From Deltaproteobacteria bacterium (GTDB lineage Bacteria > Bdellovibrionota_C > UBA2361 > OMII01), in NCBI GenBank assembly GCA_947491545.1, contig CANLJX010000009.1, positions 1-44,263 of the forward strand: a stretch of DNA of 44,263 nucleotides, written 5' to 3'. Shown here in pieces: positions 13,664 to 31,982 of the stretch. The notes beneath the pieces were generated by a model. It was not told where the DNA came from. It saw only the letters and a list, made by a program, of their open reading frames with translations, and searched no databases. How positions within the stretch are numbered: position 1 is the first letter of the stretch; each line of letters starts with the position of its first letter. Both the position numbers and the translations under genes were made by a program.

Positions 13664-13705
13664 TGCCCACGCCTTGAATCGAACAAGGGACCTCAGAATT
13701 ATGAG
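13664..13705. repeat. Attachment site, displaced tRNA-Met 3' half
   Basis: 42 bases identical to 31909-31950. Read on the minus strand it gives CTCATAA (anticodon loop), the T-arm and the 3' acceptor strand, but nothing homologous to the 5' half follows it. The encoded CCA seen in the intact gene is absent here (CAC instead of TGG on the plus strand). This suggests the host gene may have lacked a CCA that the island supplies. Confidence 0.9.
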
Positions 13706-13773
13706 AAAGGCAAAAGCCATCCTGAAATCAGCATATTATGCGTACTTACAAAGGGTTAAGGGGTTGAGGGGTG

Positions 13774-13820
13774 TTGCCAAATGTGGTGGTTTTGGGGGTC
13801 AGTTGGCACGCCATTGGCAC
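13774..13820. other. Possible integrase arm-binding repeats
   Basis: TTGGCAC occurs at 13803-13809 and 13814-13820 as direct repeats 11 bp apart (one helical turn). The inverted near-copy TTGCCAA lies at 13774-13780. They sit just inside the left attachment site, where arm-type sites of tyrosine integrases are expected. The integrase itself is missing, so this is inference. Confidence 0.4.
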
Positions 13821-13833
13821 GGGGAATGGGAGA

Positions 13834-14799
13834 TCAGCCCTTTTGAAGAGACACGACCGGCTCCTTAAGCCAGCTCAAAAACCCCGCCTCAGCAAACATC
13901 TGCAAATCCATACCAGCCGCAGTCAGCTCTAGGAGGTCATCGCTCGCTGCGGATAACTCGCGTCTCCTCTTTGAATCTAGTTTAAAGGCAGTACCATAGA
14001 ATTTGCCCCGAACATTCCACGGCTGACACCGCCCTCCGCTATCAATTCTTAAACGAATCAGATTCCACTGGTCGAAGGCAAACCCAAGAAACATCACCTT
14101 CTGTGCCTTTTCAATCATCTGTGCCGCATACATTAACTCTGGTGTGTAATTGTGCTCGAGCTCTGATATCGTCCGCAGGCCCGCTGCGACCCTTATCAGC
14201 TGGTCAACCTCTACACTCTGTCCATATCTCCTAACTTCAACCCCCTTCTCAGGCTTGTGTACTGAGCCCAAATTCCCATGCAAATGAAGCAAGGTGACAC
14301 GATCTGCTAAAGTCTCCGCCGGCGCGAGAAGATTCGGTGGAACGGGAAAGCTGCGCAGAAACTCATCAAGTGAGAGATCGTAATTGAAAGTTAAAAGCAC
14401 TGGAGGATAGCGCCCCCCTTCTAAAAGTTCGACGATCAAATTCGCCAGGTTATGATACCAGTTAGATTTACTGTTACTAAGACGTACTCGGTCCTCAACC
14501 CCAAGAAGCTCATGAGCGATCATGATGCGAGCAATCTCCGCAAACCGAGCATTCTTTTCGATGAATTGGTCTATTGAATCGACTATCGTTAGATCGAGCT
14601 CGTGTCGGAATGCCTCCAGAGATCCCTCGGAAATCTTCGCGTGCAGTAACGCGCTGGTCAACAACTCTGAGGGCTCCTCTACTGAATCTCTGATAGCCTT
14701 TAGCAGCGAACCTCCCAAAGGATATCCAAGATGAGCGCTGGCGCCGGCGCCTAAGACTATCACACGCTCGGCAAACCGCGGACTCACTACCATCGGCAT
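13834..14799 (-). CDS. SIR2-like domain protein downstream of BREX
   Basis: A probable cytoplasmic SIR2-fold protein (321 aa from ATG 14799). The chosen ATG has GGAG seven bases upstream; an in-frame GTG at 14835 would add 12 residues and sit 14 bp from brxL. The N-terminus carries the NAD-binding loop VIVLGAGASAHLGYPLG (about 12-28). The core has VLLTFNYDLSLDEF (about 135-148) and LLHLHGNLG (about 170), the Asn/Asp and His positions of defence-type SIR2 proteins; the zinc-ribbon cysteines of deacetylase sirtuins are missing. SIR2-like proteins in ThsA, DSR and pAgo systems are NAD+ hydrolases. It is in line with the BREX genes and ends 129 bp from the island boundary. NADase activity and BREX partnership are inferences; it could instead be an independent defence gene. 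Confidence 0.8.
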   Translation of the reverse strand: MPMVVSPRFAERVIVLGAGASAHLGYPLGGSLLKAIRDSVEEPSELLTSALLHAKISEGSLEAFRHELDLTIVDSIDQFIEKNARFAEIARIMIAHELLGVEDRVRLSNSKSNWYHNLANLIVELLEGGRYPPVLLTFNYDLSLDEFLRSFPVPPNLLAPAETLADRVTLLHLHGNLGSVHKPEKGVEVRRYGQSVEVDQLIRVAAGLRTISELEHNYTPELMYAAQMIEKAQKVMFLGFAFDQWNLIRLRIDSGGRCQPWNVRGKFYGTAFKLDSKRRRELSAASDDLLELTAAGMDLQMFAEAGFLSWLKEPVVSLQKG

Positions 14800-14849
14800 C
14801 TTAAAGCTCCAATTGGCTAGATGGCGTTCAGTCACCTATCCACATCTCA

Positions 14850-16913
14850 TCACCCCTGCCTCAAATAAGTAACCTCAAACGCCTTACAAGGCCGGTACTG
14901 CTGGAGCCGATTGGTGAAGTTAAAAGCCTCGCTCATCTCGTAGTGCTGAAATATGTCGAGGCCGCGATCTAGCGATATCTTCCATCCTTTGTCGGTAATT
15001 ATATGCCTAGCATGGAGGCCACCGGATGAACTGAACTCCCATGTGAATGTCAGACCTAACGCGCCGCAGGCAACCTTCATCTTCTCAAGGTTCTCTCGCT
15101 GCTGCTCGCTCTTGAACTCGTCCTCAATGGTCACGAGATGAACTGCGACTTCGTCCTCCTCGGCTTTGTGCTTAACAACGGTCTCGAGAAACTCCATCAG
15201 GTTTCGCATCTGATAAAATAAGCGGATGTACGGATCGGTGACTGTTATCTTGCTCGCTCCCTTAATATAAGGGCCGAAGAGATTGTCGTAGGAGACCCCC
15301 TTCTGATTCTCCTGGAACGTGATATGCCGCTCTTTTGGTGCCTCTTGGGGCGGTTTAGCCGCGACTGGCGGTGAATCGACACGCATAGGTTCCTGACTGT
15401 TAGCAGAAGCCTCAAACAGAGGCGCGCTACCTTCTTCCGACGCCACGCGATAGTAGTACTGGGGATACTGCTGCTCCTCTAAGGTAGCAACTGTTTTGGA
15501 TGCCCCATCGGTGTCGCTATACGAGAATTGAACTCGAGCGTAGGTTGAGTCGATACGCATCAGTTGATCCTTGACCCGCTTGCGCCCCTCGACTGCAAAC
15601 TTGAGAAGCTCTTCGATCTCCTCCTTTGAGGCGCCGTCGTGCGGGAAAAGTATCTTCATCAAACCTGCGAAGGTCTTGTTGATGGCATCTCGGTCTCTGG
15701 TTGATAGGTCCGATGATAGCGAGAAGTGCTCTGCGTATCGGTCAGAGTAGTCCCTGTTTCTGAGGAATCTGAGGATCTCGGCAAAATAGTCAACGACGAA
15801 GCCGTAGCCGCTCGAAAACATCTCGCCGCGAATAATATCCACTTCCCACCCAGGGATATAGAAATGTAGGCGATCAAGAAACGCCGAGTCATAGTACTCC
15901 TTAGGCAACTCATCAAAGAGGTCGGTATGCTTCAGCATATATGGCACGGTGTGCTGGGTGTTACCAACAAACGCCATTGAAGCTTCGGCGCCAAGTGTTT
16001 CCACGCCACGGGAGAACGACTTATTCGCCATGTAGTTCTTCATTATATCAACAAGCCTCTTATCGACCTGCTTTTGCTTACCTGCGAACTCATCGAAGGC
16101 GACACAATCCCAGTAGCCTACTAGGCCTATTTTGCCCGAGGAGTTATTCACAAAGAGCTTGGGGACGCTCACCTCCCCGCCCGACAAGAGTATCCCATGC
16201 GGAGAGAACTCCGAGAAAATGTGAGATTTACCGGTGCCCTTCGGCCCAAGCTCAATCAGGTTGTAGTTTCGCTCGCAGAAAGGGATCAACCGCACAAGTT
16301 GAGTCAACTTGCTGCGACGCCCGAACAGCTCTGGGTTAAAGCCAATACTTTGAACGAGGAGGTCGATCCACTCGTCGGTAGTGAACTCCTTACGAGCTGC
16401 CAGATAGCTATCGAAATCAAAGTGCGAGAGTTGAATAGGCTTTAAGGACGACAGTATCCAAGGGCTAACGTTCTTATCCTCGGTCCACTCATACTCAATA
16501 TCTGAGATGCACCATACGCCGCTCACCAGTAGCTTGGGATGCGCCTTGATGGTACCTGAGTCAACTAACACCTTATCGATACCTAGGTTCGAAAACTCGG
16601 CCTCGTAAACACCACGTTTATCATTAAGCTCGACGCTAACCTTATCAATGACCTTATACCGCCCCTTCTCCTTAACGTGAGAACGGACAAGCCCTGCTTC
16701 AGCGCGGTGCACATAGTGCTTACTAAGGATCTCTTTGACCGTATTGATACCGGTTTGAATCGTTGCCTCGTCGCTCGTCGCGCAGTACTGCCCAAGCAGA
16801 TACTCAAGCACGTACGACGGAACTATAGCGTTCCCCTTAACCGCCTTGACTAGATCCTTACGAACTACGAGACCCGGAAAGTGGGTGTTTATCTTTTGGT
16901 CTAGTTGATTCAT
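14850..16913 (-). CDS. brxL: BREX Lon-like AAA+ protein BrxL
   Basis: The Lon-related AAA+ protein of type 1 BREX (687 aa). In studied systems BrxL forms ring assemblies on DNA and is needed for phage restriction. Walker A is GPKGTGKS (223-230) and the Walker B-like motif VAFDEFAG (271-278). From about residue 545 the C-terminus (LFGPYIKGASKITVTDPYIR ... ARHIITDKGWKISLDRGLDIFQ) looks like the phospholipase-D-like MITD1 C-terminal domain rather than a Lon protease domain; I see no Lon Ser-Lys dyad. A low-complexity Pro-rich linker (about 505-540) separates the parts. The ATG lies 12 bp after the pglZ stop, with AGGGGGC upstream. The SIR2-like gene follows in the same direction. Confidence 0.9.
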   Translation of the reverse strand: MNQLDQKINTHFPGLVVRKDLVKAVKGNAIVPSYVLEYLLGQYCATSDEATIQTGINTVKEILSKHYVHRAEAGLVRSHVKEKGRYKVIDKVSVELNDKRGVYEAEFSNLGIDKVLVDSGTIKAHPKLLVSGVWCISDIEYEWTEDKNVSPWILSSLKPIQLSHFDFDSYLAARKEFTTDEWIDLLVQSIGFNPELFGRRSKLTQLVRLIPFCERNYNLIELGPKGTGKSHIFSEFSPHGILLSGGEVSVPKLFVNNSSGKIGLVGYWDCVAFDEFAGKQKQVDKRLVDIMKNYMANKSFSRGVETLGAEASMAFVGNTQHTVPYMLKHTDLFDELPKEYYDSAFLDRLHFYIPGWEVDIIRGEMFSSGYGFVVDYFAEILRFLRNRDYSDRYAEHFSLSSDLSTRDRDAINKTFAGLMKILFPHDGASKEEIEELLKFAVEGRKRVKDQLMRIDSTYARVQFSYSDTDGASKTVATLEEQQYPQYYYRVASEEGSAPLFEASANSQEPMRVDSPPVAAKPPQEAPKERHITFQENQKGVSYDNLFGPYIKGASKITVTDPYIRLFYQMRNLMEFLETVVKHKAEEDEVAVHLVTIEDEFKSEQQRENLEKMKVACGALGLTFTWEFSSSGGLHARHIITDKGWKISLDRGLDIFQHYEMSEAFNFTNRLQQYRPCKAFEVTYLRQG

Positions 16914-16925
16914 AACGCTTGCCCC

Positions 16926-19451
16926 CTAAAAATCGAAATCACTCTTGAACGAGCGTCTCACCCCGTAACGCATGGACCGGTATTCCTTGTAGTGCGAAGT
17001 TCCAGCGTGCCTCTCCTCTAGCTTGAGGATCACTTCCTTGCCGTTTGCCTCATCTGCCTTTCGCGTCAGAACGAAACGAACAGCGATCTCTCGGTCGCGT
17101 GAATTATCGGCCGCAAGGTCAAAGGTAAGCTCATGGCTATCCGACACAAGCTCCCCTGCCTCATTGTATATCCCTGCTCGTAAGACTCGCGGCTTGATCT
17201 TATCGGACACTGGAGTTCTCTGATAGAACGTGACCCCGAGCTGGCCTGAAGTAATAATAGAACTAGAGCCGCGGATGATATCGACCTCTACCTCTGTCAC
17301 GTCGCTCTGGCGCTTCTTTTTAACCTTCAAAACAGGGATGACTATCTCCTGCAAAGTCGCCCCACCATGCACGTACCTGCTACCAGCCCCCTGCAAGCGC
17401 AGACGATTCACTGATTTTGGTATCTGTATCTCAACTGTTCCAGCGAGGCCCACTTGCTCTGAAGTAAACTTTTTGAAGCTCGCTGATGGCTTAAGCCCCT
17501 TACCCAAAACAAAGCGCCTATCCTTATAGAGTACCTTCTCGCCTTCAGGCTCAGCGCCTAAAAAGTCACTCTGCTCAAGGGGCTGCGTCTGATAAATGAA
17601 TCCGTGATCAGCGGTGACCAGCAGGTTGACCGCATTAGCGCTGCCGAGTTTCTTAATCAGATGATACAGCTCACTCAAAGCATCCTCTGTGGCTTCGAAA
17701 GCGCGATCCTCTGTTTCGCGCGTATGCGCGGTGCTATCAATCCGATTCTGATAGATGTAGATCACATCGTTGTCACGGATAAGTTCCTTGCACTCATCCC
17801 CCTTGAGGCCCAACACCTCCTCTGCCTTTAATGCTCTGGCACGGAATTTCTCGTCCCGATTAAGGATCTTCCCTCGCGCTTCTACCCCGCTGGAGGGCAT
17901 ACCATCGACACTCACCAAGCCCGAGTCATTATCTGCTATCGCAAGCTCGGTATGTGGAAGCAGTGCTGCCATGCCGAGCTGCGTGTAACTTGGTAACATT
18001 GAAAGCGCTGGCTCAACTTCTGCAGTAAACCTATCTTCTTGATTGATTATTCGACACAGCTCCTCGCCTAGCTCAAATCGCAGAGCATCTGAGATAATGA
18101 CACACACCTTAACTTCTTTGCTTAGGAAGCTCCCGACCTGACGAGAAAAGAAATCTCGCTGGCTCATAATAGGCGAGGCGTCCCACCGCTCTAGTTTGTC
18201 CACGAAACCTTGGAACTCATCTCCTAAGCGCATTAAATAATTCGTAGCATAGAGATTCTCGATCTGCTCCGAGAGATCGCCTAAGAGCGTAGCTTGGCCT
18301 GCGCTCCTGGTGTTGTACGCAAACTTTCGATAAAGCTGGTCGATCCGAAACCAGGTAGTGGCATACCGCTCAATACCTTGAGCAAAGCTCTGCATCGAAA
18401 GGTTAGCCCCTGATAAGGCCGACAGAAACTGGGCGCCATAATCCATAGCTTCGTAGATATGGGCGTATTCCTTGTACCAGTGGCCAGAGCGCCGTTGTCT
18501 CGCCCAGGTAGAGACCTCCTCACTTGAAACGGTACGGGCACTCACTTCCTTCACGAGGTCGCTAATTATCTTCTGATCGACTAGCTTAAAGAGATCAACG
18601 TTTAGCAGCTCGCGAAAGTCTCTCGAGATAATCTCGTCTTCGATGGAAAGCACACTCTCACACTCGCCTGAGAAGTGATTAAATGCATCCGAAAATTGTC
18701 GGCTATCTTTCCACCGCTTTAGAAATACGAGGGCATCGGCGGACAGCTTGATATCATAGGGGCTAGGCTGAGACGACTTGCCTGGTCTCAGTGCTGCAGC
18801 ATAACCAGATTTGAATAACTCTATGACGAAATCGCGAATACCAGGGGCTGATGACGTGTACTTAAACGCCCTGGACATCTGTTCCCATAGGAACTCTTGT
18901 AATCCAACCCGCTTGAGGAGCTCCATCTTCTCGGATCTACCTACGGCATCTTCGTCGATTAAGTGCTCAACGATAGCCTCCATCCGAGGCTCCGCCCCAG
19001 CACAAACCGCCATCATCTTGAGCCGGATCTGATTATCTGTATCATCGGGCTTAAGGAGCTGCCTTAGTGCCTCTTTTCGTTTTACTGCCTTTAGAAACTC
19101 CGCGTGTTGCTCGATCACTTGGCTAAACTCTGGCCCAAGTTCCAGCTCAGCAAGCCAAAGAGCAACCTGATCGGCGCGGAATACAGAGTGGCTAAGCTGA
19201 ACATCGAGGAGCCAGTTGTTCAGATCGGCTGGCTGTTCGCCATCACGGAATAATAAGAACCTCTGTTCAGGTTGTTCCCTCAAGATACGGTATTTAACAC
19301 CGTACTCGTTGTTCTGAAGAACGATCTTCTCAACACCCTCGATCTCTAGTGCATCAAAGTCACTCCGCATCTCGTGCTTGGCATCATACCAAAATACGAT
19401 ACGATGCTTTTCGAATAACTTTGTTAGTGCTTGATAGATCCGCTCACTCAT
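16926..19451 (-). CDS. pglZ: BREX phosphatase-fold protein PglZ
   Basis: The alkaline-phosphatase-superfamily core component of BREX (841 aa, the usual size for type 1 PglZ). It is essential for defence and methylation in studied systems; metal-dependent phosphodiesterase or nuclease activity has been reported for family members. Metal-site motifs are visible: CVIISDALRFELGEELCR (about 450) and LLVTADHGFIYQTQ (about 617). Another acid-rich stretch, YIYQNRIDSTAH, lies between them. The N-terminal half is helical and family-specific. The C-terminal 200 residues form strands (VEVDIIRGSSSIITSGQLGV). It starts 21 bp after pglX and ends 12 bp before brxL, so it is transcribed with them. No truncation or frameshift is seen. 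Confidence 0.93.
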   Translation of the reverse strand: MSERIYQALTKLFEKHRIVFWYDAKHEMRSDFDALEIEGVEKIVLQNNEYGVKYRILREQPEQRFLLFRDGEQPADLNNWLLDVQLSHSVFRADQVALWLAELELGPEFSQVIEQHAEFLKAVKRKEALRQLLKPDDTDNQIRLKMMAVCAGAEPRMEAIVEHLIDEDAVGRSEKMELLKRVGLQEFLWEQMSRAFKYTSSAPGIRDFVIELFKSGYAAALRPGKSSQPSPYDIKLSADALVFLKRWKDSRQFSDAFNHFSGECESVLSIEDEIISRDFRELLNVDLFKLVDQKIISDLVKEVSARTVSSEEVSTWARQRRSGHWYKEYAHIYEAMDYGAQFLSALSGANLSMQSFAQGIERYATTWFRIDQLYRKFAYNTRSAGQATLLGDLSEQIENLYATNYLMRLGDEFQGFVDKLERWDASPIMSQRDFFSRQVGSFLSKEVKVCVIISDALRFELGEELCRIINQEDRFTAEVEPALSMLPSYTQLGMAALLPHTELAIADNDSGLVSVDGMPSSGVEARGKILNRDEKFRARALKAEEVLGLKGDECKELIRDNDVIYIYQNRIDSTAHTRETEDRAFEATEDALSELYHLIKKLGSANAVNLLVTADHGFIYQTQPLEQSDFLGAEPEGEKVLYKDRRFVLGKGLKPSASFKKFTSEQVGLAGTVEIQIPKSVNRLRLQGAGSRYVHGGATLQEIVIPVLKVKKKRQSDVTEVEVDIIRGSSSIITSGQLGVTFYQRTPVSDKIKPRVLRAGIYNEAGELVSDSHELTFDLAADNSRDREIAVRFVLTRKADEANGKEVILKLEERHAGTSHYKEYRSMRYGVRRSFKSDFDF

Positions 19452-19472
19452 TTAACGCCCCGCTTAGGCCCC

Positions 19473-22400
19473 CTACTCTTCATCGCTGTCTAGCCCGGCT
19501 ATTTTTTTGAGCGCCGAGCCGAATTTAACGTAATTAACCTTCACCCCATCATCGAGATCGATCTCTATCTGCTTCGTGGCCAAGGGGTACAGTACATCAC
19601 GCTCGTACTCCTCCATCTCAGTCATCATCTTCTGGATCTTATCGATCTCTTTTAGAGCCTTAGTCTTGTCACTCTGCGATGCGCTCCCGCTGATACTGAC
19701 AGCCTCTAAGTGATTCTTATGCGAGGCAAGCTTCGCGCGGAACTCACGGAGGTAGTCATTGAGCACAATACTTACCGTGTCTGGCCGGTAACGGTGCATA
19801 TAAATAAGCGCGTTAAACGTTCCCTTGGGGCTTGAGAAGAGCCAATAGATCGGACGTTTCTTGTAGCGCTTAACGTGATCGTTAAAGAACTCACCCAAGA
19901 AGTAGTCTCGGATGGAGTAGTTTCGACGCCCCTTGGTGTTAAGGGCCTTCTCGATGAATTCAAGATTTTCCTCATAGTGCTCATCCCCGAAGGCGACCCG
20001 TAGGAAGGTCTTAAATCTCTCGGTGATATCATCCGGGAACCACTCGCCGTCTAGCAGCGGTATAACGTTATCTCTGTCAGCTTCGAAGGTTGGAGCAGGA
20101 ACCTGCTTTAGGTAGTCTTCGATCGTTTCGCCCTGATTGGCGAGGATTAAACCTGGCTTATCAAGGGAGTAACGGCCAAACATACAGCCAACGGCGTACG
20201 AGATAAGCTCGCGCATGGTGTCGGCGAGGAGGAGGGATTCTAGCTCCTCTTCGGATTTGTCTTTGCCGTAGCGGTAGTGCGGGTTGCAGGTAAGTGTTAT
20301 CTCGTTTAGAGGAACCTCGGGTGTTAGTTCGTTTTGGAGGCCGTAGGCTTCGATGAAGATGCAATTATTTTCGACCTCGAGGTCTTGCATGCGGCCGACA
20401 GCGTCGTCCCAGCTTGCACGGACGGAGTCGTATGCGAGTTTTAAGGTTGCGTTATGGAACTCGGGGCTGAGAAGAGGCAGGGTCTTAAATTCCCACGAGA
20501 TTTCGTAGGACTTCCAATCATGCAGAGATAATTGAATGGCAGATTGGCAAATTTGAGTCACCTTAGCGTACGGCACTTCCTGGTATGGCAAGTTCAGAAT
20601 GTGTCCCAGTTTGAAGTCAAGGGTCGGGGCTAACATAGTGATTAAGTGATTTGTGACTACGCTATTCAGAAATGCCGTGTGTGGCAGGAGATTCTTACTA
20701 ACGAGGGAGAATCCCATGGGGCCTTTGGCATCAAACATCAGGCCTTGAGGGACATGACGTACTGCAAATGTGCCGCTTGAGATACCGGACCACGTGAATC
20801 CAGTCCTGAAGGCATATGCACCATTGTAGTTATGAGACCTGACGCGTCCAGTGGCGGGATCCTTGAACTCCTTTAGCTGTTCCCCGTCGTTAAACCAATT
20901 CACAACATAATCAAAATTTCCATACCATCGCCGGAACTCTCCACCTTTGACGTAAGTAAAATAGCGCTTACGACTCACCTGAGCCGCACTGTTGTCCGCT
21001 ATGCCGAACCCGACTGTTAAAACGGCAACCTCATGCCACAATCGTAGGAACAAAGCATTACTCCCTGTAGTCAAGCCTTCTCGAGTCTCTATGGCCCTGG
21101 ATAGCGGCGGTGCACTATCAAAGAGCTGAAGGACATCTCGAGATGCCCAATACGCAATCGGACTCCCCGGAATCTTCTTAAAGTCAGCGGCTGATGCCCG
21201 ATAGAACCAGCCACATGAGGGGTTTTGGATGGCCTCAAGTGTCTTTGGCGCCTGATTTTCAGCCCCACGAAAATCGGACAGGCGGACATACCCCCCCTTA
21301 AACGTCGGCCGGTGATGATTCTCCAATGTGAAGGTACAAATTGGCACAGTAGCCCCATCGAAGCCTGAGTACTCTAGCTGGATTAAAGACGTCAGCGTCT
21401 TATTCTCGATGATATAAGTGCGCAGGTCTTCGTATGAGGAGATGAACATCCATACAAACGGGCACATAAAACCCAACTGTGCTTTCGGAAGAGCCATCTC
21501 CAAGTTTCGAACAATGAAGGCCGAAAACAGGTCGGACTTAACATCTGGGTAATTCTCTTTAACCCAAGCCCCCAACCTCCCATTCATCCCCTTCCCACCC
21601 ATATACGGCGGATTAGCAATCACCACCTGATACCGCGGCGCCAAATACTCAGCCTGCTCCAAAACCCGCAGCACTTTCTTATGAGTAGTAGACAAAAACA
21701 GCTCGCCCGCAACCTTCTTCGTCTCAAGCAACCGCCTAGCCTCATCAACATCAGTCAGCTCCGGCCGAATCAACGACCCAAAATTATCCGCCTCCTCAAA
21801 CTGCTTCAGCGTATTCAAAAGCGGTGTAGTAAAGAGGTCCCGACCGATAAAGCCCATGTAGTCGGCCAACTCTCTATCCTCAAACTTTACGTTTCGCAAA
21901 GCGCAGATATTTGGCTCTATCTTTTCGCCCCGCGCAGCGATGCGTCTGAAAAATCGCTTGTCATACTGTAAGGCCTTCATCGTGAGCGCAAATGACGCAA
22001 GCGCTCCGGCGCGCTCGTCGATCTCGATTCCAAAGAGATTGTTCTTTAGAATCTTCTCAGGGATCTCTCCTGGCTCGTGTCCCTCCTCTTCGTAGATTGC
22101 ATACAGCAGATCAAAAGCATACGTAAGCATGTGCCCCGAGCCGCACGCTGGGTCACAGATTTTCAGCTCCTCTGGCTTTGATATCTTTAAAAAGTCAGTC
22201 TCAGCGCTCTCGGGCTTGATGTAATACTCCATCCTCTCAGCGAGCTTTGAATTTGGTCTATTTAATAACCAAAGACGCCCGAGGGAGTTCTCAACGAGGT
22301 ATCTAACGATCCAGTGCGGTGTAAAAAGCTGCGTTGCGGCTGGAATGTTTTCCGGAGTGATCTTTTTATTCTTTTTAAGTCCGTCAAAAACCTCATCCTT

Positions 22401-23024
22401 CTTCTCAGAGATGTAAAACTGATATAACCAGCCGATCACCTCAACATCCTGGGCGTTTTCGCCGCTCATCGCCTCTCGTGTCTCAGCGAGTATTGAGCTC
22501 TCTGAAAGCAGGTCATCGGGCATTAAAAGCTCGGAATAGTCCTGAATCTCCTCAAAGAGAAACGGCATCGAGCGGTTCCAGAAGTTACACGCCGCGACAA
22601 CCAAGAGCCTATACGCTTCACCCTGCGGGTCGGGGCTGGTGATCTTACCACCAAGGAGGCCCAAGACCTTTTGACGAGTCTCCTCTTGCACCATCTCCTC
22701 ATCAATGTGCCCCATCTTGGCTTCAGCGAGAATCTCCGGCTGTGTCTGACCTTCTGCGGGGCTTACTGTGCCAATTCTTGTGTAGCGGTTTACATCCATG
22801 AAGCGCAGGGCGCAGAAGCGGTTAAACCAGGTGTAGGCGACCCGCTCAACGATCTGCTCGCGGCCAGAGGTTTCAATAGCTGTTTCGAGCTTCTTTACTG
22901 CCCCTGCACTTTCACGGCGAGCTGCGCTGTTCTCGGCAAGCACAACTGTTAGCTTGGTACTAACCTGCGATATCAGGTATCGCCTTGCCTTCTGCGCGAA
23001 TTTCTTGAGCTTTGCGGTATCCAT
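19473..23024 (-). CDS. pglX: BREX adenine-specific DNA methyltransferase PglX
   Basis: The site-specific N6-adenine methyltransferase of BREX (1183 aa), which marks host DNA as self and sets the recognition sequence. The S-adenosylmethionine motif is CDPACGSGHML (290-300) and the catalytic motif is IANPPYMGG (469-477). The region between about 480 and 850 should hold the target-recognition part, and the C-terminus is helical. Length is typical for type 1 PglX and the frame is intact. Third-position base use changes on both sides of the presumed recognition region (about 21590-21840 and 20215-20470), a possible sign of recombination. The ATG lies 52 bp after brxC with a weak TAAGG. The methylation motif cannot be read from sequence. 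Confidence 0.94.
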   Translation of the reverse strand: MDTAKLKKFAQKARRYLISQVSTKLTVVLAENSAARRESAGAVKKLETAIETSGREQIVERVAYTWFNRFCALRFMDVNRYTRIGTVSPAEGQTQPEILAEAKMGHIDEEMVQEETRQKVLGLLGGKITSPDPQGEAYRLLVVAACNFWNRSMPFLFEEIQDYSELLMPDDLLSESSILAETREAMSGENAQDVEVIGWLYQFYISEKKDEVFDGLKKNKKITPENIPAATQLFTPHWIVRYLVENSLGRLWLLNRPNSKLAERMEYYIKPESAETDFLKISKPEELKICDPACGSGHMLTYAFDLLYAIYEEEGHEPGEIPEKILKNNLFGIEIDERAGALASFALTMKALQYDKRFFRRIAARGEKIEPNICALRNVKFEDRELADYMGFIGRDLFTTPLLNTLKQFEEADNFGSLIRPELTDVDEARRLLETKKVAGELFLSTTHKKVLRVLEQAEYLAPRYQVVIANPPYMGGKGMNGRLGAWVKENYPDVKSDLFSAFIVRNLEMALPKAQLGFMCPFVWMFISSYEDLRTYIIENKTLTSLIQLEYSGFDGATVPICTFTLENHHRPTFKGGYVRLSDFRGAENQAPKTLEAIQNPSCGWFYRASAADFKKIPGSPIAYWASRDVLQLFDSAPPLSRAIETREGLTTGSNALFLRLWHEVAVLTVGFGIADNSAAQVSRKRYFTYVKGGEFRRWYGNFDYVVNWFNDGEQLKEFKDPATGRVRSHNYNGAYAFRTGFTWSGISSGTFAVRHVPQGLMFDAKGPMGFSLVSKNLLPHTAFLNSVVTNHLITMLAPTLDFKLGHILNLPYQEVPYAKVTQICQSAIQLSLHDWKSYEISWEFKTLPLLSPEFHNATLKLAYDSVRASWDDAVGRMQDLEVENNCIFIEAYGLQNELTPEVPLNEITLTCNPHYRYGKDKSEEELESLLLADTMRELISYAVGCMFGRYSLDKPGLILANQGETIEDYLKQVPAPTFEADRDNVIPLLDGEWFPDDITERFKTFLRVAFGDEHYEENLEFIEKALNTKGRRNYSIRDYFLGEFFNDHVKRYKKRPIYWLFSSPKGTFNALIYMHRYRPDTVSIVLNDYLREFRAKLASHKNHLEAVSISGSASQSDKTKALKEIDKIQKMMTEMEEYERDVLYPLATKQIEIDLDDGVKVNYVKFGSALKKIAGLDSDEE

Positions 23025-23076
23025 CTTCTATGCCTTACTGCCTGGTTTATTCGTCATCTGCGAGCGCTCGATCGTG

Positions 23077-26000
23077 TCACACTTGAATACGCCGCCCCTT
23101 GCGGATCTCGACCAATAGGCCGGTCTTTAGGGCCTCTAGGTATCGCTCAACATCAGACTCCGTTGCCAGCCATGCCTGGTCGAAGGCTACTGACACCTGA
23201 TTTCGCGAGATAACTTCTATCGGCCCACTACTCGGGCCTTTAGAAGAGTTGGCTGCTTGGCTCTCTGCCGTGCTGCCCTTTATCGGAGCACTTGGAGCTG
23301 TGGGCGGAGCGGACCAATGCGCAAGGTTGCCGAGCAGCTGGCTGTACTTCTGATCTTCAAAACTCCTGGCGGTGTCGCGGAGGATCGGGATTAAGCTGTG
23401 CTTTTCGAGAGCCACCCTGCACTCTGCGAAAGCACTTTCAACTATCTCTTTCTGCTCCTGCTTCAGGGCCGCAAAGTCAGTCATCCCGCAGAGCTTACTG
23501 CGCAATTCTTCAATCTTTGTTCCAGCCGCTAATCTCTCTCTTTGGATCACATCAGTGAGGGTCTGCTTGAGAACATCGAGACGCTCCTTTAGCTGTTGAA
23601 GTTTCTGGCCGCGATAACAAGCGGGATCCGAGAGGATCGAGCTGACAAAATCCGCATCCTCTCCGGCCAGATAGCTGAAGTTCGCCTGATTTTCCTGCAC
23701 AAATCGGCGCGCCTCATCGTAGATTTCCTTTTGCTTGCCACTCATGAACTTTCTGATGGGGTCTATCGTTCGTTCCTTGAGCTCAAGCAGGTCATCCGAC
23801 TGTCGTTTGAGTTCGCTCAGACACCACGAGTAATTCTTATTAGCGAACCCTTGAAGCTGGTCTGCGATGGGAGCCAGAGACGCTAGGAATGGATACTGCG
23901 CCTGTTGTAACGCGAGATCCCGCAGCGCTGAACTCATTCGCTCGAAGCCTAGTAAGGTATCCTTCGCAAGCGCTTTAGGCTCTGTATTGGCTGAAGGTTG
24001 ATCAAAAAAAGTCGAATAGAACTCCTTGAGGTCTCTAATCTGCGATGCAGTGAAATCCACCTGTGGTGTAAGTATCACGAGTGCATGACCGTGAGTGTTC
24101 CGCAGAGCCCGCTCGATCCCGTCATCCTCTACTATATTGCCATCTACTCGAAGTTCTATCTTACCTCGAGCACAGAGCTGTGCTGTTATGCAGAGAATGC
24201 CGGGATAACTCCAACCATAAGGCTTTCGCTCAAACACCTCGAGGGTTGACTTTAATGTCACCCGTTGGCCACCCCCGTTCTGGATTTGCACATGGGAGAG
24301 GATCTCCTGTTCCGCTTCGCTCAGATTGGTTGCGTCAGTGTGCGCTAGGTTAGCCTGCGACTTGTCAAGGTAACGACTGATATCATCTTCTGTGTAAGTC
24401 ACCCCTCGCAGCATCTTTAAGTTCGGGTAGACCCGCGTTACCAGATCGCAGAATCCTCGAACTATGCGCGTCTGAGCATCGGTTGCCCCGCTCTCAATTC
24501 TCGATCCTTCCACGAAGAGCTTCGCGGACCGGAGGAGCTCTTCAACTCGACTCCCAATCGTGACCAATCGAGATCGATTCTGAACGGCTTTTTCGTTTAG
24601 GATACGCTTAGTCGAGTCCTGCTGTGATATCGAGATGTTCTGGCGAACGTACTTCTCAGTTTTTTTATACATCGCCAGGTCACGCAGCAACCGATCATCT
24701 GGGGGCATTATCACAAGAAGCTCTGCCCGTCCCATGCTTTGCGAGACTAGGATGTGCTCCTGGTCAGCTTTATCGTGAAAAGGGGTTATGACATGTATGG
24801 ATAATTCGCTCTCACGACCGTGAGGACGATCATCGAGCTTACGGCCGAAGGGATAATCGTAGCCTCCGCCAGAAGATGTTCCAACCTCGTACCGAATTTT
24901 TCGATTTTTTATGACGTTATCAAAAACGATCTTTTCCAACTCATCAAGAACATCGCCTGTATCTACGTCGGTATTCTTAATCTCTTGCTCTACGTCCTTT
25001 TCCTCATCGGTCAGGTACTCGAATATCTCGCCGTTTCTCTGCACGTAGGTTTGCTGCTCAAGAAGGTTGAGCGCCTCCTCGACTCGTCGACGTAGAGCCT
25101 GAAGATCCTCATCGAACCGAGAAAGCATTAAAACGCAGAGGTTGCGGACCGTGGCCTTAAACTCCTTAACGTACTTCACTAGAAATAGCGCCTTTAGAAC
25201 TCGCACGGCGAACTTATCATCGAGGTGCTGTTCGGCAGACAGCACGGCTCTTTGAATCCGAGATTTCAGAGATGTACGAAGCCCCTCGAACATCAGATCG
25301 AAGGTAGCAAGCTGACCGAGTTGGTGATCGCTGATATGAACAGCGACCTCCTGGAACACGCCAAGCATCGAACGCTCTCCGACTGAGCTATTTTTCCCCT
25401 CGAAGGCATTCTGAGCAGATAGGTTCTCAATCGCGGCCTGAAATAACGCGAACTGATACGGGATGAAGGGGTAGCTGTGTATGAAGTGATCCCTATCCTG
25501 AAAGTTTCGATAGGTTTTTGCTCCATCTGCAAAATCAAAGAGAGTTTTGAAGTTATTTGATTGCTCGTGATAGATTGTTGTGAGTTCCGCTACGCCTACT
25601 TCGTTCTTCAAAAGTAGTCGCTTTTGGATCACCTCTGCGACATCAGCGCTGGTCAGCTTCATCCGCTTTTTGAATCGCGCCTGAATCTTAGAGAAGTCAT
25701 TTGCTTGTTGTTTGGTCATCTCGCCGACAACCGTGGCCATGTCCTCTTGTGCCGTAACCAGCACCCAGGCTCGCCCCTCGCATTTGGTTGCAAGGCTCTC
25801 CGCGATAGTCTGGAGGTTTGTCATCAACTTGACGTTATCGGCGATGTACTGGCCGACTTCGTCGACAAAGAAGTTAAGGCGGAAACCTGGGACCTGCTGT
25901 CCGATGAAGGTATTAACCTGTTCCGCGAAGTCCTCTATTGAGACTCGATAGTGGTCTCGGTACTTATCCAAAATACCAACGGCAGCCTGTTCATCCACCC

Positions 26001-26631
26001 CGGCAACCTGCGCATAGGCTTTCGCGATGTTAACCTCCTCAAGGAGAGATTGCTCACGTCCTGTGTGCCATGCGTAGCCGCTCACAGTTTCATAGACAGC
26101 CATGAAGGCTTCGTACTGTCCACGTCCATCGAGATCACGCTCGAATTTAGCAATGTACGCCTGCTTGCCGTAATATCCACACGCCTCATCGAAGACCTTT
26201 ACGAATACAGCGAGCAAAGCATCGAGTTGGGTCTTACTTATGACATCCGCTTTCTGGTCGATGTTGAAGAGAAGGCTCTTTGAGGGAATTGCTACAGCAC
26301 GCTTTAGATCGCCTCGCAGGATCTCGTTGTCGTTGCACTTGGGAAGGAAAAGGTCCGCGGCTTTGACGCCATCGATCTGTCTGTTTTCAAGTAAAAAAGC
26401 CAAAATCTTTAAAAGATGCGATTTGCCCGATCCGAAGAAGCCCGAGACCCAGACACCATTAGCCCCCTGGTAATTGTTGTATGAATCGAGGAACTCCTCC
26501 AAGCGCTGAGCCACCTCGTTCGTTAGGACATATTCCTCAAACTCTGTGCGGAGAGATTTCTCGTCATCAGCTTTAATCACCCCTTCAATCGGTCGGTCTA
26601 CTGGCTTTTGGAAAATACTCTTGAGGTTCAT
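23077..26631 (-). CDS. brxC: BREX P-loop ATPase BrxC
   Basis: The large ATPase of BREX (1184 aa), needed for defence and for methylation in studied type 1 systems. The N-terminal ATPase domain carries Walker A VSGFFGSGKSHLL (62-74) and a Walker B-like LNFFVDEVGQYI near residue 255. Long helical and coiled-coil stretches follow (for example about 940-1090), then a low-complexity Ser/Pro segment (about 1115-1140), and the protein ends on a small basic domain (VEIRKGRRIQV). Length matches BrxC. AGGAG precedes the ATG at 11 bases. It starts 14 bp after the brxB stop, within the same transcription unit. Frame intact. Confidence 0.94.
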   Translation of the reverse strand: MNLKSIFQKPVDRPIEGVIKADDEKSLRTEFEEYVLTNEVAQRLEEFLDSYNNYQGANGVWVSGFFGSGKSHLLKILAFLLENRQIDGVKAADLFLPKCNDNEILRGDLKRAVAIPSKSLLFNIDQKADVISKTQLDALLAVFVKVFDEACGYYGKQAYIAKFERDLDGRGQYEAFMAVYETVSGYAWHTGREQSLLEEVNIAKAYAQVAGVDEQAAVGILDKYRDHYRVSIEDFAEQVNTFIGQQVPGFRLNFFVDEVGQYIADNVKLMTNLQTIAESLATKCEGRAWVLVTAQEDMATVVGEMTKQQANDFSKIQARFKKRMKLTSADVAEVIQKRLLLKNEVGVAELTTIYHEQSNNFKTLFDFADGAKTYRNFQDRDHFIHSYPFIPYQFALFQAAIENLSAQNAFEGKNSSVGERSMLGVFQEVAVHISDHQLGQLATFDLMFEGLRTSLKSRIQRAVLSAEQHLDDKFAVRVLKALFLVKYVKEFKATVRNLCVLMLSRFDEDLQALRRRVEEALNLLEQQTYVQRNGEIFEYLTDEEKDVEQEIKNTDVDTGDVLDELEKIVFDNVIKNRKIRYEVGTSSGGGYDYPFGRKLDDRPHGRESELSIHVITPFHDKADQEHILVSQSMGRAELLVIMPPDDRLLRDLAMYKKTEKYVRQNISISQQDSTKRILNEKAVQNRSRLVTIGSRVEELLRSAKLFVEGSRIESGATDAQTRIVRGFCDLVTRVYPNLKMLRGVTYTEDDISRYLDKSQANLAHTDATNLSEAEQEILSHVQIQNGGGQRVTLKSTLEVFERKPYGWSYPGILCITAQLCARGKIELRVDGNIVEDDGIERALRNTHGHALVILTPQVDFTASQIRDLKEFYSTFFDQPSANTEPKALAKDTLLGFERMSSALRDLALQQAQYPFLASLAPIADQLQGFANKNYSWCLSELKRQSDDLLELKERTIDPIRKFMSGKQKEIYDEARRFVQENQANFSYLAGEDADFVSSILSDPACYRGQKLQQLKERLDVLKQTLTDVIQRERLAAGTKIEELRSKLCGMTDFAALKQEQKEIVESAFAECRVALEKHSLIPILRDTARSFEDQKYSQLLGNLAHWSAPPTAPSAPIKGSTAESQAANSSKGPSSGPIEVISRNQVSVAFDQAWLATESDVERYLEALKTGLLVEIRKGRRIQV

Positions 26632-26645
26632 CGTTTTCCGGTCTC

Positions 26646-27257
26646 CTATGCCTGACAGTGAAAAATATTAAATGCTCGGTAGTACTTGTCGTCATGTAGT
26701 CTTCCGAAGAGATCGAGCGATGCTCCTAGCTCGAGCGACTGGGTGTATTCGCCTGGAAAATACATTACGGTCGGTTTTTCTTTTGCTGTGCTTTGAAGGT
26801 TATTGAGGACGTTGTGGGAGCGAATATAAGGAAACACCTCTCCTACACCTGAGAGGAAGAGAACATCAAAGTCAGCACCGTCAAGCTCAGCCGCTATCGC
26901 AGGCACAAGGTGTTTCTCGGGGTCTAATACTCCCTGGAGGAGCTCTCTCAACTGATCCTTCGATACCGACGATTCCCTTTTGAGCACCTGTTCCCAAATA
27001 CCTCGAGTGCGTAAGATCGAAATTGAGAGGTCGTACAGGTTAATGCAGAGAGGCCTGATTCCCTGCCGCTCCAACTGATTAACTAGTTGTCGCTGTATGC
27101 CTTCCATCTCGACCGCTTCACTTGCTTTGTAGGGACAGATAAAGAAAGGCACTTCATTACCGAGCCCTTGCTTCTTGAGAAAGCGTTCGCCTGAGATAAC
27201 ACGGTAGAGGTGCTGAAAGCGCTCCTGCATCGACAAATTTGTAGATTCTGCTGTCAC
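26646..27257 (-). CDS. brxB: BREX protein BrxB (DUF1788)
   Basis: A small BREX core protein of the DUF1788 family (203 aa). It is required in studied type 1 systems and has been reported to interact with other BREX components; its biochemical role is unclear. The GTG start overlaps the brxA stop (GTGA) and has AGGAGG eight bases upstream, so translation is coupled to brxA. Family-like features are the N-terminal MQERFQHLYRVI helix, PFFICPYKASEAVEMEG in the centre, and VLFLSGVGEVFPYIRSHNVL followed by PTVMYFPGEYTQ near the end. No enzyme motif is visible. Position, length and neighbours all support the call. Confidence 0.92.
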   Translation of the reverse strand: MTAESTNLSMQERFQHLYRVISGERFLKKQGLGNEVPFFICPYKASEAVEMEGIQRQLVNQLERQGIRPLCINLYDLSISILRTRGIWEQVLKRESSVSKDQLRELLQGVLDPEKHLVPAIAAELDGADFDVLFLSGVGEVFPYIRSHNVLNNLQSTAKEKPTVMYFPGEYTQSLELGASLDLFGRLHDDKYYRAFNIFHCQA

Positions 27258-27868
27258 TGAGCGATCCTCCTAACGTCGGCATCAAAAACGGGGAAAAAGA
27301 TGATATCGCGCCCACCGGCCCTGGCGAGAAGCTGCATAAGCTGTGGACTAAATATCGCTGGATGGATTGAGCCGTTAGGGGAGAGGAGATCCGCTTCGCG
27401 GAGCATTCTGAATAGGGTCTGTTGCCAGTTCTTCTGGGTACGTTGACTTAGTTGCTCTAACTCCGGGTGCCATTGGCATTTCCTGCCAAAGAACGCGTGG
27501 AAGTCATTACCGCTCAGAGTAGGCTGTAGTGATAAATACTTCTCCCTTACGACCTCTGTAGCGAACTCCGCTATGAATTGATATCTCCGACAGATCGCAA
27601 TCCAGATCAGGTAGCTCTGGTCAGCGGCATTCGAACTGAGGAGGAAACGCAGCTCCGCATCATTAAGCTCCTTAAGCCGCGCAACAACCTCGCGCGCAAT
27701 ACGACCAGAGGCACTTTGGGTACGACTCTGAAAAAGGTTCTCTCTAGCTACTCGCAACCGAACCTCTTCCCAATCGTTGAGCGCTAGATAGAGGTCGGCA
27801 AGCTGCAACGACTCGGCCCTCATCAGGCTGCCGGTTTGGAATGATTTATTGTACTTCGTTTCTTTCAT
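27254..27868 (-). CDS. brxA: BREX protein BrxA (DUF1819)
   Basis: The first gene of the operon, a DUF1819 protein (204 aa from ATG 27868). BrxA is a small helical DNA-binding protein in the characterised family. The protein begins KETKYNKSFQTGSLMRAESL, a typical BrxA N-terminus, and includes the helical segments SYLIWIAICRRYQFIAEFATEVV and QNWQQTLFRMLREADLL, the latter resembling a winged-helix part. The frame continues upstream to a TTG at 27985, but that extension overlaps the leader hairpin and looks non-coding. The start is embedded in GAGAGAATGA, overlapping the stop of a 36-codon leader frame. It overlaps brxB by four bases. Confidence 0.9.
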   Translation of the reverse strand: MKETKYNKSFQTGSLMRAESLQLADLYLALNDWEEVRLRVARENLFQSRTQSASGRIAREVVARLKELNDAELRFLLSSNAADQSYLIWIAICRRYQFIAEFATEVVREKYLSLQPTLSGNDFHAFFGRKCQWHPELEQLSQRTQKNWQQTLFRMLREADLLSPNGSIHPAIFSPQLMQLLARAGGRDIIFFPVFDADVRRIAQ

Positions 27869-27975
27869 TCTCTCGAATCGTACTCTTGAACTTTTCGCGC
27901 AAAAACAAAGAACCCGAGGCGCACCTCGGGCGCCAGCCATGCGAGCCGCTTGCCTCTTTCGGTAACCACAGGCAT
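27865..27975 (-). CDS. Possible 36-codon leader peptide of the BREX operon
   Basis: A short frame starting MPVVTERGKRLAWLAPEVR runs through the terminator hairpin and stops in an ATGA overlap with the brxA start. Such coupling could let ribosomes on the leader open the hairpin and reach brxA. The ribosome-binding site is poor (GGGG close to the ATG) and no family is recognised. It may be non-coding. Confidence 0.25.
   Translation of the reverse strand: MPVVTERGKRLAWLAPEVRLGFFVFARKVQEYDSRE
27901..27930 (-). terminator. Terminator-like hairpin in the BREX leader
   Basis: Read on the minus strand: CCCGAGG-TGCG-CCTCGGG (27930-27913), then TTCTTTGTTTTT. This is a good intrinsic terminator shape: a perfect 7-bp GC-rich stem, a tetraloop and a T-rich tail. 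It lies between the predicted promoter (28028-28056) and brxA (27868), so it could attenuate the operon. It might instead only stop read-through from the transposase gene. Confidence 0.6.
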
Positions 27976-28027
27976 TACCCCGCAAAGAGACCTAACACCT
28001 TGAAAGTTTTTGGCTTTATAAGACGAG

Positions 28028-28056
28028 AGTGTATCCCCTCGAATCAAAAGGTTCAA
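28028..28056 (-). promoter_or_regulatory. Predicted sigma-70-type promoter of the BREX operon
   Basis: On the minus strand, TTGAAC (28056-28051), a 17-base spacer, then TACACT (28033-28028). Both boxes match four of six consensus bases at ideal spacing. Transcription would start near 28021, giving a leader of about 150 bases before brxA. Confidence 0.45.
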
Positions 28057-28350
28057 CGGTAAGCTGTTGCTTTGTTTTGGGGTCTTTAGAGGTGTTTAGG
28101 CTCTAGTAGTATGCCCTGCCTCGGCGCACTTACATAGGAGCTTTGACCCATTCGACCAGTGCAACCTTAGGTAGATAGCAAAATTAGCCTCCTCCTTTAG
28201 TGTACTAGACTCGAAATGCCTACCAATACCGACACCATGCACACCTGGGGTCAAGAAAAGCGCCCTTTCTCTGTATGCGGACTAAGGTATTTAGAGGCGT
28301 CCAGCTGTCTTGCGCGGAGGCGCGAGAGATTTGCAGACGTAATGAGTGGC

Positions 28351-28386
28351 AAAAAACTCCAATACTGACCCAACGGTCGGAGTTTT
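28351..28386 (-). terminator. Terminator-like hairpin after the transposase gene
   Basis: On the minus strand AAAACTCC-GACC, loop GTTG, GGTC-(6-base bulge)-GGAGTTTT followed by TT. There are 12 pairs with one bulge and a run of six T. It lies 63 bp after the transposase stop. It could also be a terminal hairpin recognised by the transposase. Confidence 0.45.
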
Positions 28387-28448
28387 GGTTAGGCGACTAC
28401 GCCTGTGATACTTGCTCACTTCACAGAAAACACCCGCCCCACAACGAA

Positions 28449-29456
28449 CTACGTGCGGAAAAGAACTTCACGGGAAAACGAGGAAAATCCCCTCGGAGGA
28501 AGCCACGGGATGAACACTCCGTCGGGCCATACGACTGGCAGTCCTTGCTTGAGATCCTCGTAGCACCTCCGACACTTCTCAGCTATCTGCCGAACAAAAG
28601 AGATAATTCGCTGCCGTAACTCTGTATCACTGCATATGACGAATATTTTTCGTTCTCTCTTGGCTGGCTTGTGCGGCTTGAAATAGGGTTGTCGCCGAAG
28701 ATGCTGCACTCCCATTACGGGACGAGTGCGATTTCTCCGGTATTTCGCTTCCTCTTCATACACCGACTTTATCACTCGCTCCCTCACTGCCTGAATTGTT
28801 TTAGGATCCGTAACCCCAAACGGCTCAAGCCACGCTAAGGGCTTGAGCACGAGCTCGTGCTCAAAAACATTTTCCGAGCACTGTAGATATGAAACAAATC
28901 GGTTGTCCTCCTCTTCGGTCAAGGTATCGTCGTTCGGAAGCCGCGGAATGGCTGCCTTGTGGTAACACCTCACTGGTACTGAAACAGTAGCTTCCACAGA
29001 GGGCTCACACGTCTTGAAGGCGTGCCAAGAGCTGAGGCCGGGAAACTCATCGATTGACTCTACCAGACCCGCCTTGGTCGGGTTGCAAAAGATATACACA
29101 AGACGCTCGATGACATCTTCGAGCGTTGGCACGACCGCCACCGTAGAGCGCCGTTCCCACAAGGAGAGTTGAGACAGCCCCAAGAGCGCCTTGACTGATT
29201 CGGTGATTCCTTTCTTGAGCTCTTTGTAGAAATGGGTGAACAGCTCCGGGGTCTTAGGCATGGCTAAGATGTGGTGGTGGTTATTCATCTCGACGAAATT
29301 ACACAAGAGGACGCGGTCATCCCTCTGCGCCCGTCCATAGATTCCGGCGAGGATCTCATTAGTCGTCTCCGTTGGCGGCAACGGCAGACCCTCTCGCGCA
29401 CGCGATACCACCTCGTACACAGCACTGTTTTTGTACACCCTTCTCGCTCTCGGCAT
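28449..29456 (-). CDS. REP-associated tyrosine (Y1, HUH) transposase
   Basis: A single-strand transposase of the IS200/TnpA-REP superfamily (335 aa), which cuts and joins DNA at hairpins through a 5'-phosphotyrosine. The metal-binding HUH motif lies in VEMNNHHHILAMP (His 60-62) and the nucleophile is Y121 in LVYIFCNPTKAGLV, whose YxNPxxAGLV context is typical. The N-terminus (PRARRVYKNSAVYEVVSRA) is the usual first strand of the family. A long C-terminal extension (about 145-335), basic and ending in WPDGVFIPWLPPRGFSSF, is shared by many chromosomal domesticated members. It lies inside the island, upstream of the BREX promoter. A REP-like palindrome lies just upstream (29539-29587). It looks intact. 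Confidence 0.88.
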   Translation of the reverse strand: MPRARRVYKNSAVYEVVSRAREGLPLPPTETTNEILAGIYGRAQRDDRVLLCNFVEMNNHHHILAMPKTPELFTHFYKELKKGITESVKALLGLSQLSLWERRSTVAVVPTLEDVIERLVYIFCNPTKAGLVESIDEFPGLSSWHAFKTCEPSVEATVSVPVRCYHKAAIPRLPNDDTLTEEEDNRFVSYLQCSENVFEHELVLKPLAWLEPFGVTDPKTIQAVRERVIKSVYEEEAKYRRNRTRPVMGVQHLRRQPYFKPHKPAKRERKIFVICSDTELRQRIISFVRQIAEKCRRCYEDLKQGLPVVWPDGVFIPWLPPRGFSSFSREVLFRT

Positions 29457-29538
29457 GAGAGACTGTTCGGTATGAAGCCCGAGAAGTTGCGGCGACCTCG
29501 CTAGCTTGCTTGAAGCTGTTTGTTTTAGAGGTGTATTG

Positions 29539-29587
29539 CACTAGGTGGTGCGAGCACTAGGTGGTGCGACCCGGACTACCGCACCAC
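29539..29587. repeat. REP-like palindrome with tandem 16-mers
   Basis: CACTAGGTGGTGCGAG occurs twice in tandem (29539-29554 and 29555-29570, last base G then C). The second copy's GTGGTGCG (29561-29568) is matched by a perfect inverted CGCACCAC (29580-29587), and GTAG follows a few bases later. Hairpins with a nearby GTAG are the usual substrate of REP-associated transposases, and the transposase gene starts 82 bp away. Confidence 0.5.
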
Positions 29588-29604
29588 AAGGGTAGTAAGG
29601 AAAC

Positions 29605-30010
29605 AACTACTTGTGAGTAACGTGCTACCCGTATTTTGGCCCAACTCTACTTCTGCGCATGTAGCGACTTATCACTTTTGTACGGGGCTTATGATTTCAG
29701 TTCTCAGGCTGACGTTTGAGGCGTTCCGCTTCACGTCTTCTGACTTTCGCTTCTCAAATCCCCGCTTATTTTCGTCTCGTCCTTGAAATTCACCGATAGC
29801 CCCGGGACTTGTCGTCTCTCGTTCGAACGAGTACTCGACGCTATTATTTCACGGTCCTCAATATCGATCGTAACGCAGCGAAACACGCTATGCTTCTTTA
29901 GTCGGCTCTATCGATTACACTGGTGGAACTTGTGAGTATTTTGCCGTGTCAACAAATGGGCCGTCAGCTCAATGAGGCTCGTGTATCTCCGACACAAGTA
30001 GACTCTTCCG
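29605..30010 (+). repeat. Dispersed intergenic repeat, copy B
   Basis: The counterpart of 3325-3530. Conserved blocks lie at 29647-29665, 29714-29726 (GTTTGAGGCGTTC) and 29986-29996 (TCTCCGACACA). About 200 bp more separate the last two blocks than in copy A. It is located between the transposase and lipoprotein genes. Confidence 0.6.
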
Positions 30011-30046
30011 TTCGTCAATCAACTCGGCGATGAGTATAACGGGCAA

Positions 30047-30682: not shown

Positions 30683-30769
30683 AGAGAATTCCTTAAGTCC
30701 AGAGCGGGCGGGATACAATACCCGTCCTGTTCGAGCGAGATACTCGAGATGCCTTTTGTCACACACGCA

Positions 30770-31905: not shown

Positions 31906-31982
31906 TGGTGCCCACGCCTTGAATCGAACAAGGGACCTCAGAATTATGAGTTCTGCGCTCTAACCAGCTGAGCTACGTGGGC
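31906..31982 (-). tRNA. tRNA-Met (CAT anticodon), island integration site
   Basis: Cloverleaf on the minus strand: acceptor GCCCACG pairs with CGTGGGC (7 of 7), a D-arm GCTC-GAGC, anticodon stem CAGAA/TTCTG with loop CTCATAA, T-arm CCTTG-TTCGATT-CAAGG, discriminator A and an encoded CCA (31906-31908). Anticodon CAT could also be the Ile2 species read by TilS, but the GTAGCTCAG-TGGTTAGAGC body matches elongator Met tRNAs. Bases 31909-31950 are the island's right attachment repeat. A weak promoter-like TTGCAA-17-CACATT lies upstream on the minus strand (about 32007-32035). Confidence 0.95.
31909..31950. repeat. Attachment site within the intact tRNA-Met
   Basis: A 42-base perfect match to 13664-13705 at a fixed offset of 18,245 bp. 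Identity stops inside the anticodon arm: TTCTG continues the tRNA here, AAAGG follows at the left site. Crossover was therefore probably in or next to the anticodon loop. Confidence 0.9.

Follow-up and report, generated by a model that had tools for sequence, protein, structure and literature searches.

The window, i.e., the whole 44,263-nucleotide stretch of contig CANLJX010000009.1 analyzed here, contains an intact type 1 BREX operon whose six genes follow the canonical order brxA-brxB-brxC-pglX-pglZ-brxL. Directly 3' of brxL, and on the same strand, lies a 333-aa SIR2-like ORF that extends from a GTG at 14835 to position 13834. The block comprises the following features.

27254..27985, minus strand: brxA
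26646..27257, minus strand: brxB
23077..26631, minus strand: brxC, Walker A intact
19473..23024, minus strand: pglX, BREX-1 adenine methyltransferase, NPPY intact
16926..19451, minus strand: pglZ, BREX-1 type A
14850..16913, minus strand: brxL, 687 aa, MIT_C-type C-terminal domain, Walker A intact
13834..14835, minus strand: SIR2_2-like gene that closes the BREX block; translation from the likely ATG at 14799 gives 321 aa
14797..14799, minus strand: likely SIR2 start codon ATG (M13), with GGAG at 14810..14807, 7 nt upstream

Upstream of brxA, positions 28449-29456 hold a gene resembling REP-associated tyrosine (Y1) transposases (NCBIfam match below the cut-off), which is inside the genomic island described below.

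The first-pass annotation had placed the SIR2 gene directly after brxL, in the same direction and with no terminator between them, and all of this was borne out. The brxL-SIR2 interval has no terminator-like site, and around the junction the minus strand shows no promoter-like site. RNA folding 3' of the SIR2 stop codon gave a structure that is not unusual (z 0.22). The reported gap at 14836-14849 stands as an adjacency but not in its length of 14 nt. Homologue starts align with residue M15 of the window SIR2 in 54 of 60 sequences, which makes GTG 14835 unlikely as the true start; ATG 14799 is probably the one used. Given this alignment and the GGAG, the spacer is probably about 50 nt, a length that resembles the 52-nt gap between brxC and pglX. 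The SIR2 reading frame is more than a chance ORF, since it has more than 100 homologues in many phyla, 13 invariant columns among 60 sequences, and a confident AlphaFold model.

An island at tRNA-Met carries both BREX and SIR2

BREX and SIR2 share a single 18.2-kb genomic island (window positions 13664-31950) that is bounded by exact 42-bp repeats derived from a tRNA gene.

31906..31982, minus strand: intact tRNA-Met (CAT), integration site (ARAGORN)
31909..31950: 42 bp within the intact tRNA-Met gene, one end of the island
13664..13705: exact copy of the same 42 bp, i.e., the 3' part of tRNA-Met, which marks the distal island end and lies 128 bp past the SIR2 stop codon

The two copies are identical at 42 of 42 positions, and the whole assembly contains no third exact copy. 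A degenerate copy (74%) is located just inside the right end, at 31810-31851, and may be left over from a previous insertion. GC content is 50.8% within the island versus 57.6% in the left flank and 55.8% in the right flank. In this respect SIR2 matches its neighbors: its GC content of 50.3% falls within the range of the brx genes (48-52%), and its GC3 is 0.53, compared with 0.53-0.62 for brx genes and 0.71-0.73 for the three left-flank genes measured.

Empty sites were found in two congeners. In one (G006), a single 743-nt match spans the sequence outside the island, tRNA-Met, and the right flank; in the other (G011), the outer 75 bp adjoin tRNA-Met directly, at 98.7% identity. The repeats, the GC contrast, and these empty sites place BREX and SIR2 in one inserted unit. 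The window SIR2 was absent from all 11 congeners searched, and no integrase or recombinase was matched among the Pfam-scanned ORFs of the island.

Additional copies of the tRNA-Met 3' core occur near the intact tRNA in two genomes of the genus: on contig C110 of G011 (L269 323-10908), about 10.5 kb apart, and on contig C229 of G001 (L270 756-3386), where there are two. Such copies suggest that, within this genus, the tRNA-Met site is a hotspot of integration.

Motifs, family, and predicted fold of SIR2

The protein had been described from its GAGAS, TFNYD, and HLHGN motifs as a defense-type SIR2, a description that agrees with our analysis: the ORF and the motifs are present, and the predicted NADase site is intact. 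The motifs map as follows.

14737..14751, minus strand: GAGAS NAD-binding loop, residues 29-33; GAG (G29-A30-G31) invariant in 60 of 60 sequences
14377..14391, minus strand: TFNYD, residues 149-153; T, N, Y, and D invariant in 60 of 60
14275..14286, minus strand: HLHG, residues 184-187; H184 and G187 invariant, H186 at the canonical sirtuin HG position

HLHGN spans residues 184-188, and a further motif, LGFAFD..N, spans residues 250-258. The 13 invariant columns of the 60-row homologue alignment include GAG, E114, T149-N151-Y152-D153, H184, G187, G251, and N258. Position 186, which holds the catalytic HG histidine in canonical sirtuins, is H in 23 of 60 sequences, including the window SIR2, and Y in the other 37. 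The histidine that is invariant in the family is H184, two residues earlier, and the active-site role may have shifted away from position 186 in this family. The catalytic residues are N133-Y134-D135-H171 in DSR2 and N112-Y113-D114-H152 in ThsA (PMC11263360), and the conserved NYD and H residues of the window SIR2 correspond to them. As it has only one cysteine, the protein lacks the zinc module that sirtuins need for deacetylation.

Family models detect this protein weakly. The match to Pfam SIR2_2 (PF13289) is below the gathering score (17.1 vs 24.5 bits, E 0.0062), the same model is matched by 27 of 60 relatives at E <= 0.001, and searches of the window SIR2 with PADLOC and NCBIfam gave zero matches. 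A profile of the family matches the KomC NADase (E 2e-5). The AlphaFold model has a mean pLDDT of 84 and a pTM of 0.85. Its best Foldseek match is SIR2 of Escherichia coli SIR2-HerA (E 3e-7), followed by PsSIR2, FAM118B, SPARSA, and sirtuins. In this model the SIR2 fold is clear, but its details are not, with Foldseek TM-scores of about 0.5. A fold search of BFVD gave zero matches below E 0.001, and a single-sequence search of PDB gave no meaningful match. Judged by its motifs and modeled fold, the window SIR2 is a true but divergent member of the SIR2_2 ("SIRim") enzymes, with all predicted catalytic motifs intact.

No recognizable sensor domain or partner of SIR2 was found, and three known identities could be rejected. 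The window SIR2 does not match the Pfam AbiH domain, which only one of its 60 aligned relatives matches (E 8e-4). The scanned ORFs of the island contain no TIR domain of the Thoeris partner ThsB. Finally, the protein does not belong to a SIR2-HerA (Nezha) system, as the island has no HerA gene and no further gene stands between SIR2 and the island end; a DUF87 search of the rest of the genome gave only two ORFs of about 780 aa, with a model that also gives matches in all 14 controls.

Genes downstream of brxL in other BREX loci

We examined 105 other BREX loci, i.e., 80 BrxL loci from the class of the window organism and three other phyla, 11 plasmid loci, and 14 loci on viral contigs. A SIR2 gene directly 3' of brxL was found in 1 of the 105, some of which end early at contig ends. 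This case (G034, same class; L245 5306-6040) is located 107 nt downstream of brxL, on the same strand, and ends at the contig end, leaving a truncated protein in which the loop motif reads GAGAP. The protein is a member of the SIR2-HerA subfamily (8w9l, E 2e-50), and BLASTP found no significant similarity between it and the window SIR2 (E 0.22). This gene is likely the start of a separate SIR2-HerA system, and it serves as counter-evidence: a SIR2 behind brxL can be merely such a likely start. The remaining loci had no SIR2 by our SIR2 profile, by the G034 protein as query, or by a relaxed motif search. A Pfam SIR2_2 search, which covered 74 BREX-bearing genomes, found the G034 gene as the only SIR2 directly after brxL and, in three further genomes (G707, G372, and G107), a SIR2_2 gene 8-13 kb downstream on the same contig. 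One weak match to the SIR2 profile (L167 18553-19347) was rejected as a SIS/RpiR regulator.

What follows brxL differs in almost every locus and includes known defense genes (AriA, IetA, DndA/SspA, and MADS). Because the BREX-SIR2 pairing is almost never found in other genomes, SIR2 is most likely cargo in a variable slot after brxL and not a conserved BREX subunit.

Two other arrangements were observed in this sample. Five BREX loci from a single family (L218-L222, f200 genomes) have a 226-aa gene that matches no Pfam model and starts 6 nt after brxL (e.g., L218 11035-11715); this recurrent gene is a better candidate for a true BREX-linked gene than SIR2. In Methylomonas pLM6 (L008 7182-13446 and 18233-25620), genes for an ATPase and a small protein separate brxC from pglX in the BREX operon, a PDDEXK gene separates pglX from pglZ, and brxL is followed by an exonuclease/YhaN/AAA ATPase cluster.

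The variability of this slot bears on the possibility that SIR2 is a chance neighbor in a defense island, i.e., a wholly independent gene with its own promoter, located where the island happened to gain genes. A SIR2 of the window type (P0001-type) never recurs beside BREX, the only SIR2 at the same place (in G034) is of a different type, members of the family are mostly solo genes, and the genes after brxL vary in nearly all loci, all of which is expected of a chance neighbor. However, the spacer of about 50 nt on a shared strand, with no terminator and no minus-strand promoter-like site, is not, and neither are the island and composition that SIR2 has in common with BREX. We regard this explanation as unlikely.

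Relatives of SIR2 and a sister gene in a type I restriction locus

When a five-row alignment (A1) was used as the query, 215 relatives of SIR2 were found in 84,980 species genomes, and the best 80 of these were kept. The same query gave 21 relatives in viral contigs. Single-sequence scans of viral contigs and genome contigs gave no relatives, and a search of phage records gave no match. None of these relatives was found beside BREX: 0 of the best 80 of the 215 genome relatives (tblastn), 0 of 21 in viral contigs, and 0 of 3 on plasmids (rhizobial plasmids). Many of the wider relatives are solo genes located beside housekeeping genes such as argS, mnmG, and priA.

Only one genome (G032, of the same class but another family) has a close relative, at 40-41% identity, and the two proteins form a sister pair in the tree with support of 100/99. 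The gene order in G032 is hsdM - hsdS - PDDEXK nuclease - hsdR - YgjP metallopeptidase - SIR2 - KAP ATPase; hsdR overlaps the YgjP gene, SIR2 overlaps the KAP gene, and 43 nt precede SIR2. This is in itself an unusual, extended type I restriction-modification (RM) locus (L006 10110-19992 and L007 2-1786), with PDDEXK (PDC-S02), YgjP metallopeptidase, SIR2, and PifA-like KAP ATPase genes as inserts. Both known cases of this SIR2 lineage are thus behind a methylation-based, DNA-discriminating operon, of which only G032 is an independent case because the window had been chosen for its adjacency.

The proposal of the first-pass annotation that SIR2 is possibly a new BREX member was not upheld. Lack of recurrence had been named beforehand as an outcome that could refute it, and the proposal came close to failing this check, with 1 of 105 other loci showing the pair, and that from another subfamily, about 100 family relatives never located by BREX, and the closest relative behind a type I RM operon. 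The broader claim that SIR2 is joined to BREX holds for strand, composition, and mobile island but not for membership of BREX. SIR2 does travel with BREX, as both are on the same mobile island.

The two operons of this lineage raise the possibility of a PrrC-like guard, in which BREX (or HsdMSR in G032) would silence SIR2 until a phage inhibitor, for instance a DNA mimic of the Ocr type, put that machinery out of action and freed SIR2; NAD+ would thus collapse only upon failure of the first layer. There are precedents (PMC12707154): inhibition of EcoprrI, a type IC system, by T4 Stp activates PrrC, which is encoded within the EcoprrI locus, and Ocr is an inhibitor of BREX as well as of type I RM. 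The position of the window SIR2 and its sole close relative at the 3' end of methylation-based operons, with similar spacers (about 50 and 43 nt), is consistent with a guard, as is the fact that wider relatives are not placed behind such operons. On the other hand, there are only two loci, one of them chosen for this feature, and BREX and type I RM have little in common that one SIR2 could bind. In addition, the overlapping KAP ATPase could be the real partner of SIR2 in G032, and 104 of the 105 other BREX loci have no SIR2 directly after brxL. A guard of this kind is, in our view, distinctly doubtful. Its extension by analogy to the lineage, i.e., that these small SIR2 proteins are portable guards that ride at the 3' end of BREX and type I RM operons and would burn NAD+ once a phage inhibitor disabled the operon, is more doubtful still; if true, they would be to NAD+ what PrrC is to tRNA, and no effector common to BREX and type I RM would precede them.

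A non-defense role in NAD metabolism also has to be weighed. Since part of the family has Y at the HG position and most relatives are solo genes beside housekeeping genes, SIR2 may have such a role, and its presence in the window would be that of a housekeeping NAD-dependent enzyme caught in an island. This is highly improbable: the gene shares its mobile island with BREX, it is absent from 11 of 11 congeners, its single cysteine leaves no zinc module for deacetylation, the nearest solved structures are antiphage SIR2s, and the sister gene is within an RM operon.

Discussion

We lean toward the view that SIR2 is a co-transcribed, NAD+-depleting effector carried as cargo behind BREX on the tRNA-Met island, where it would provide a second, independent layer of defense. 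The observed basis of this reading consists of the gene order, the intact BREX operon, the catalytic residues and fold of SIR2, and the common island and composition. SIR2 would be read from the BREX transcript, and its putative NADase activity would stay silent until an infection triggered it; NAD+ would then be depleted and the infected cell halted, an abortive outcome. The data are no less compatible with such a plain stacked defense than with a suicide backup that would respond to inhibition of BREX. BREX loci with unrelated defense cargo have been published, including BrxU (PMC12707154) and an ATPase/DUF4435 pair that specifies another antiphage activity (PMC9009780). The BREX-SIR2 pair was not described in the literature searched, which left out most subscription papers and preprints.

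If SIR2 is cargo only, the locus is a clear case of an 18-kb mobile unit that delivers a first-line defense and a predicted suicide defense together. If it is instead coupled to BREX, the operon would have a cell-killing fallback, which would explain the outcome when phage DNA mimics block BREX, and its position behind a type I RM operon in G032 makes the wiring idea testable in two systems.

Several known systems resemble parts of this locus. SIR2-HerA (Nezha; PDB 8sub, 8j4u, and 8w9l) is a defense SIR2 system that gives the best Foldseek matches and has GAG, NYD, and HG motifs, but identity to the window SIR2 is about 15% and the window island has no HerA. DSR1/2, ThsA, KomC, and FAM118, which are SIR2_2/SIRim proteins, likewise have the NYD and H pocket and no zinc module; the window SIR2 differs from them in being below the Pfam SIR2_2 cut-off, and from DSR2 in being a small, single-domain protein without the large DSR2 sensor domain. 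Type 1 BREX loci with cargo (BrxU on an Escherichia fergusonii plasmid and the ATPase/DUF4435 pair of StySA) also combine BREX-1 with an extra defense gene, whereas the cargo in the window is a predicted SIR2 NADase and is located 3' of brxL. In PrrC/EcoprrI (type IC), as in G032, an effector is embedded in a methylation-based operon for DNA discrimination; however, PrrC cuts tRNA and is a proven guard of EcoprrI, while the effector here is a predicted NADase and its coupling hypothetical. The G032 arrangement (type I RM - YgjP - SIR2 - KAP) contains the only close SIR2 relative (40%), also behind a methylation-based operon, but type I RM takes the place of BREX there and an overlapping KAP ATPase follows SIR2.
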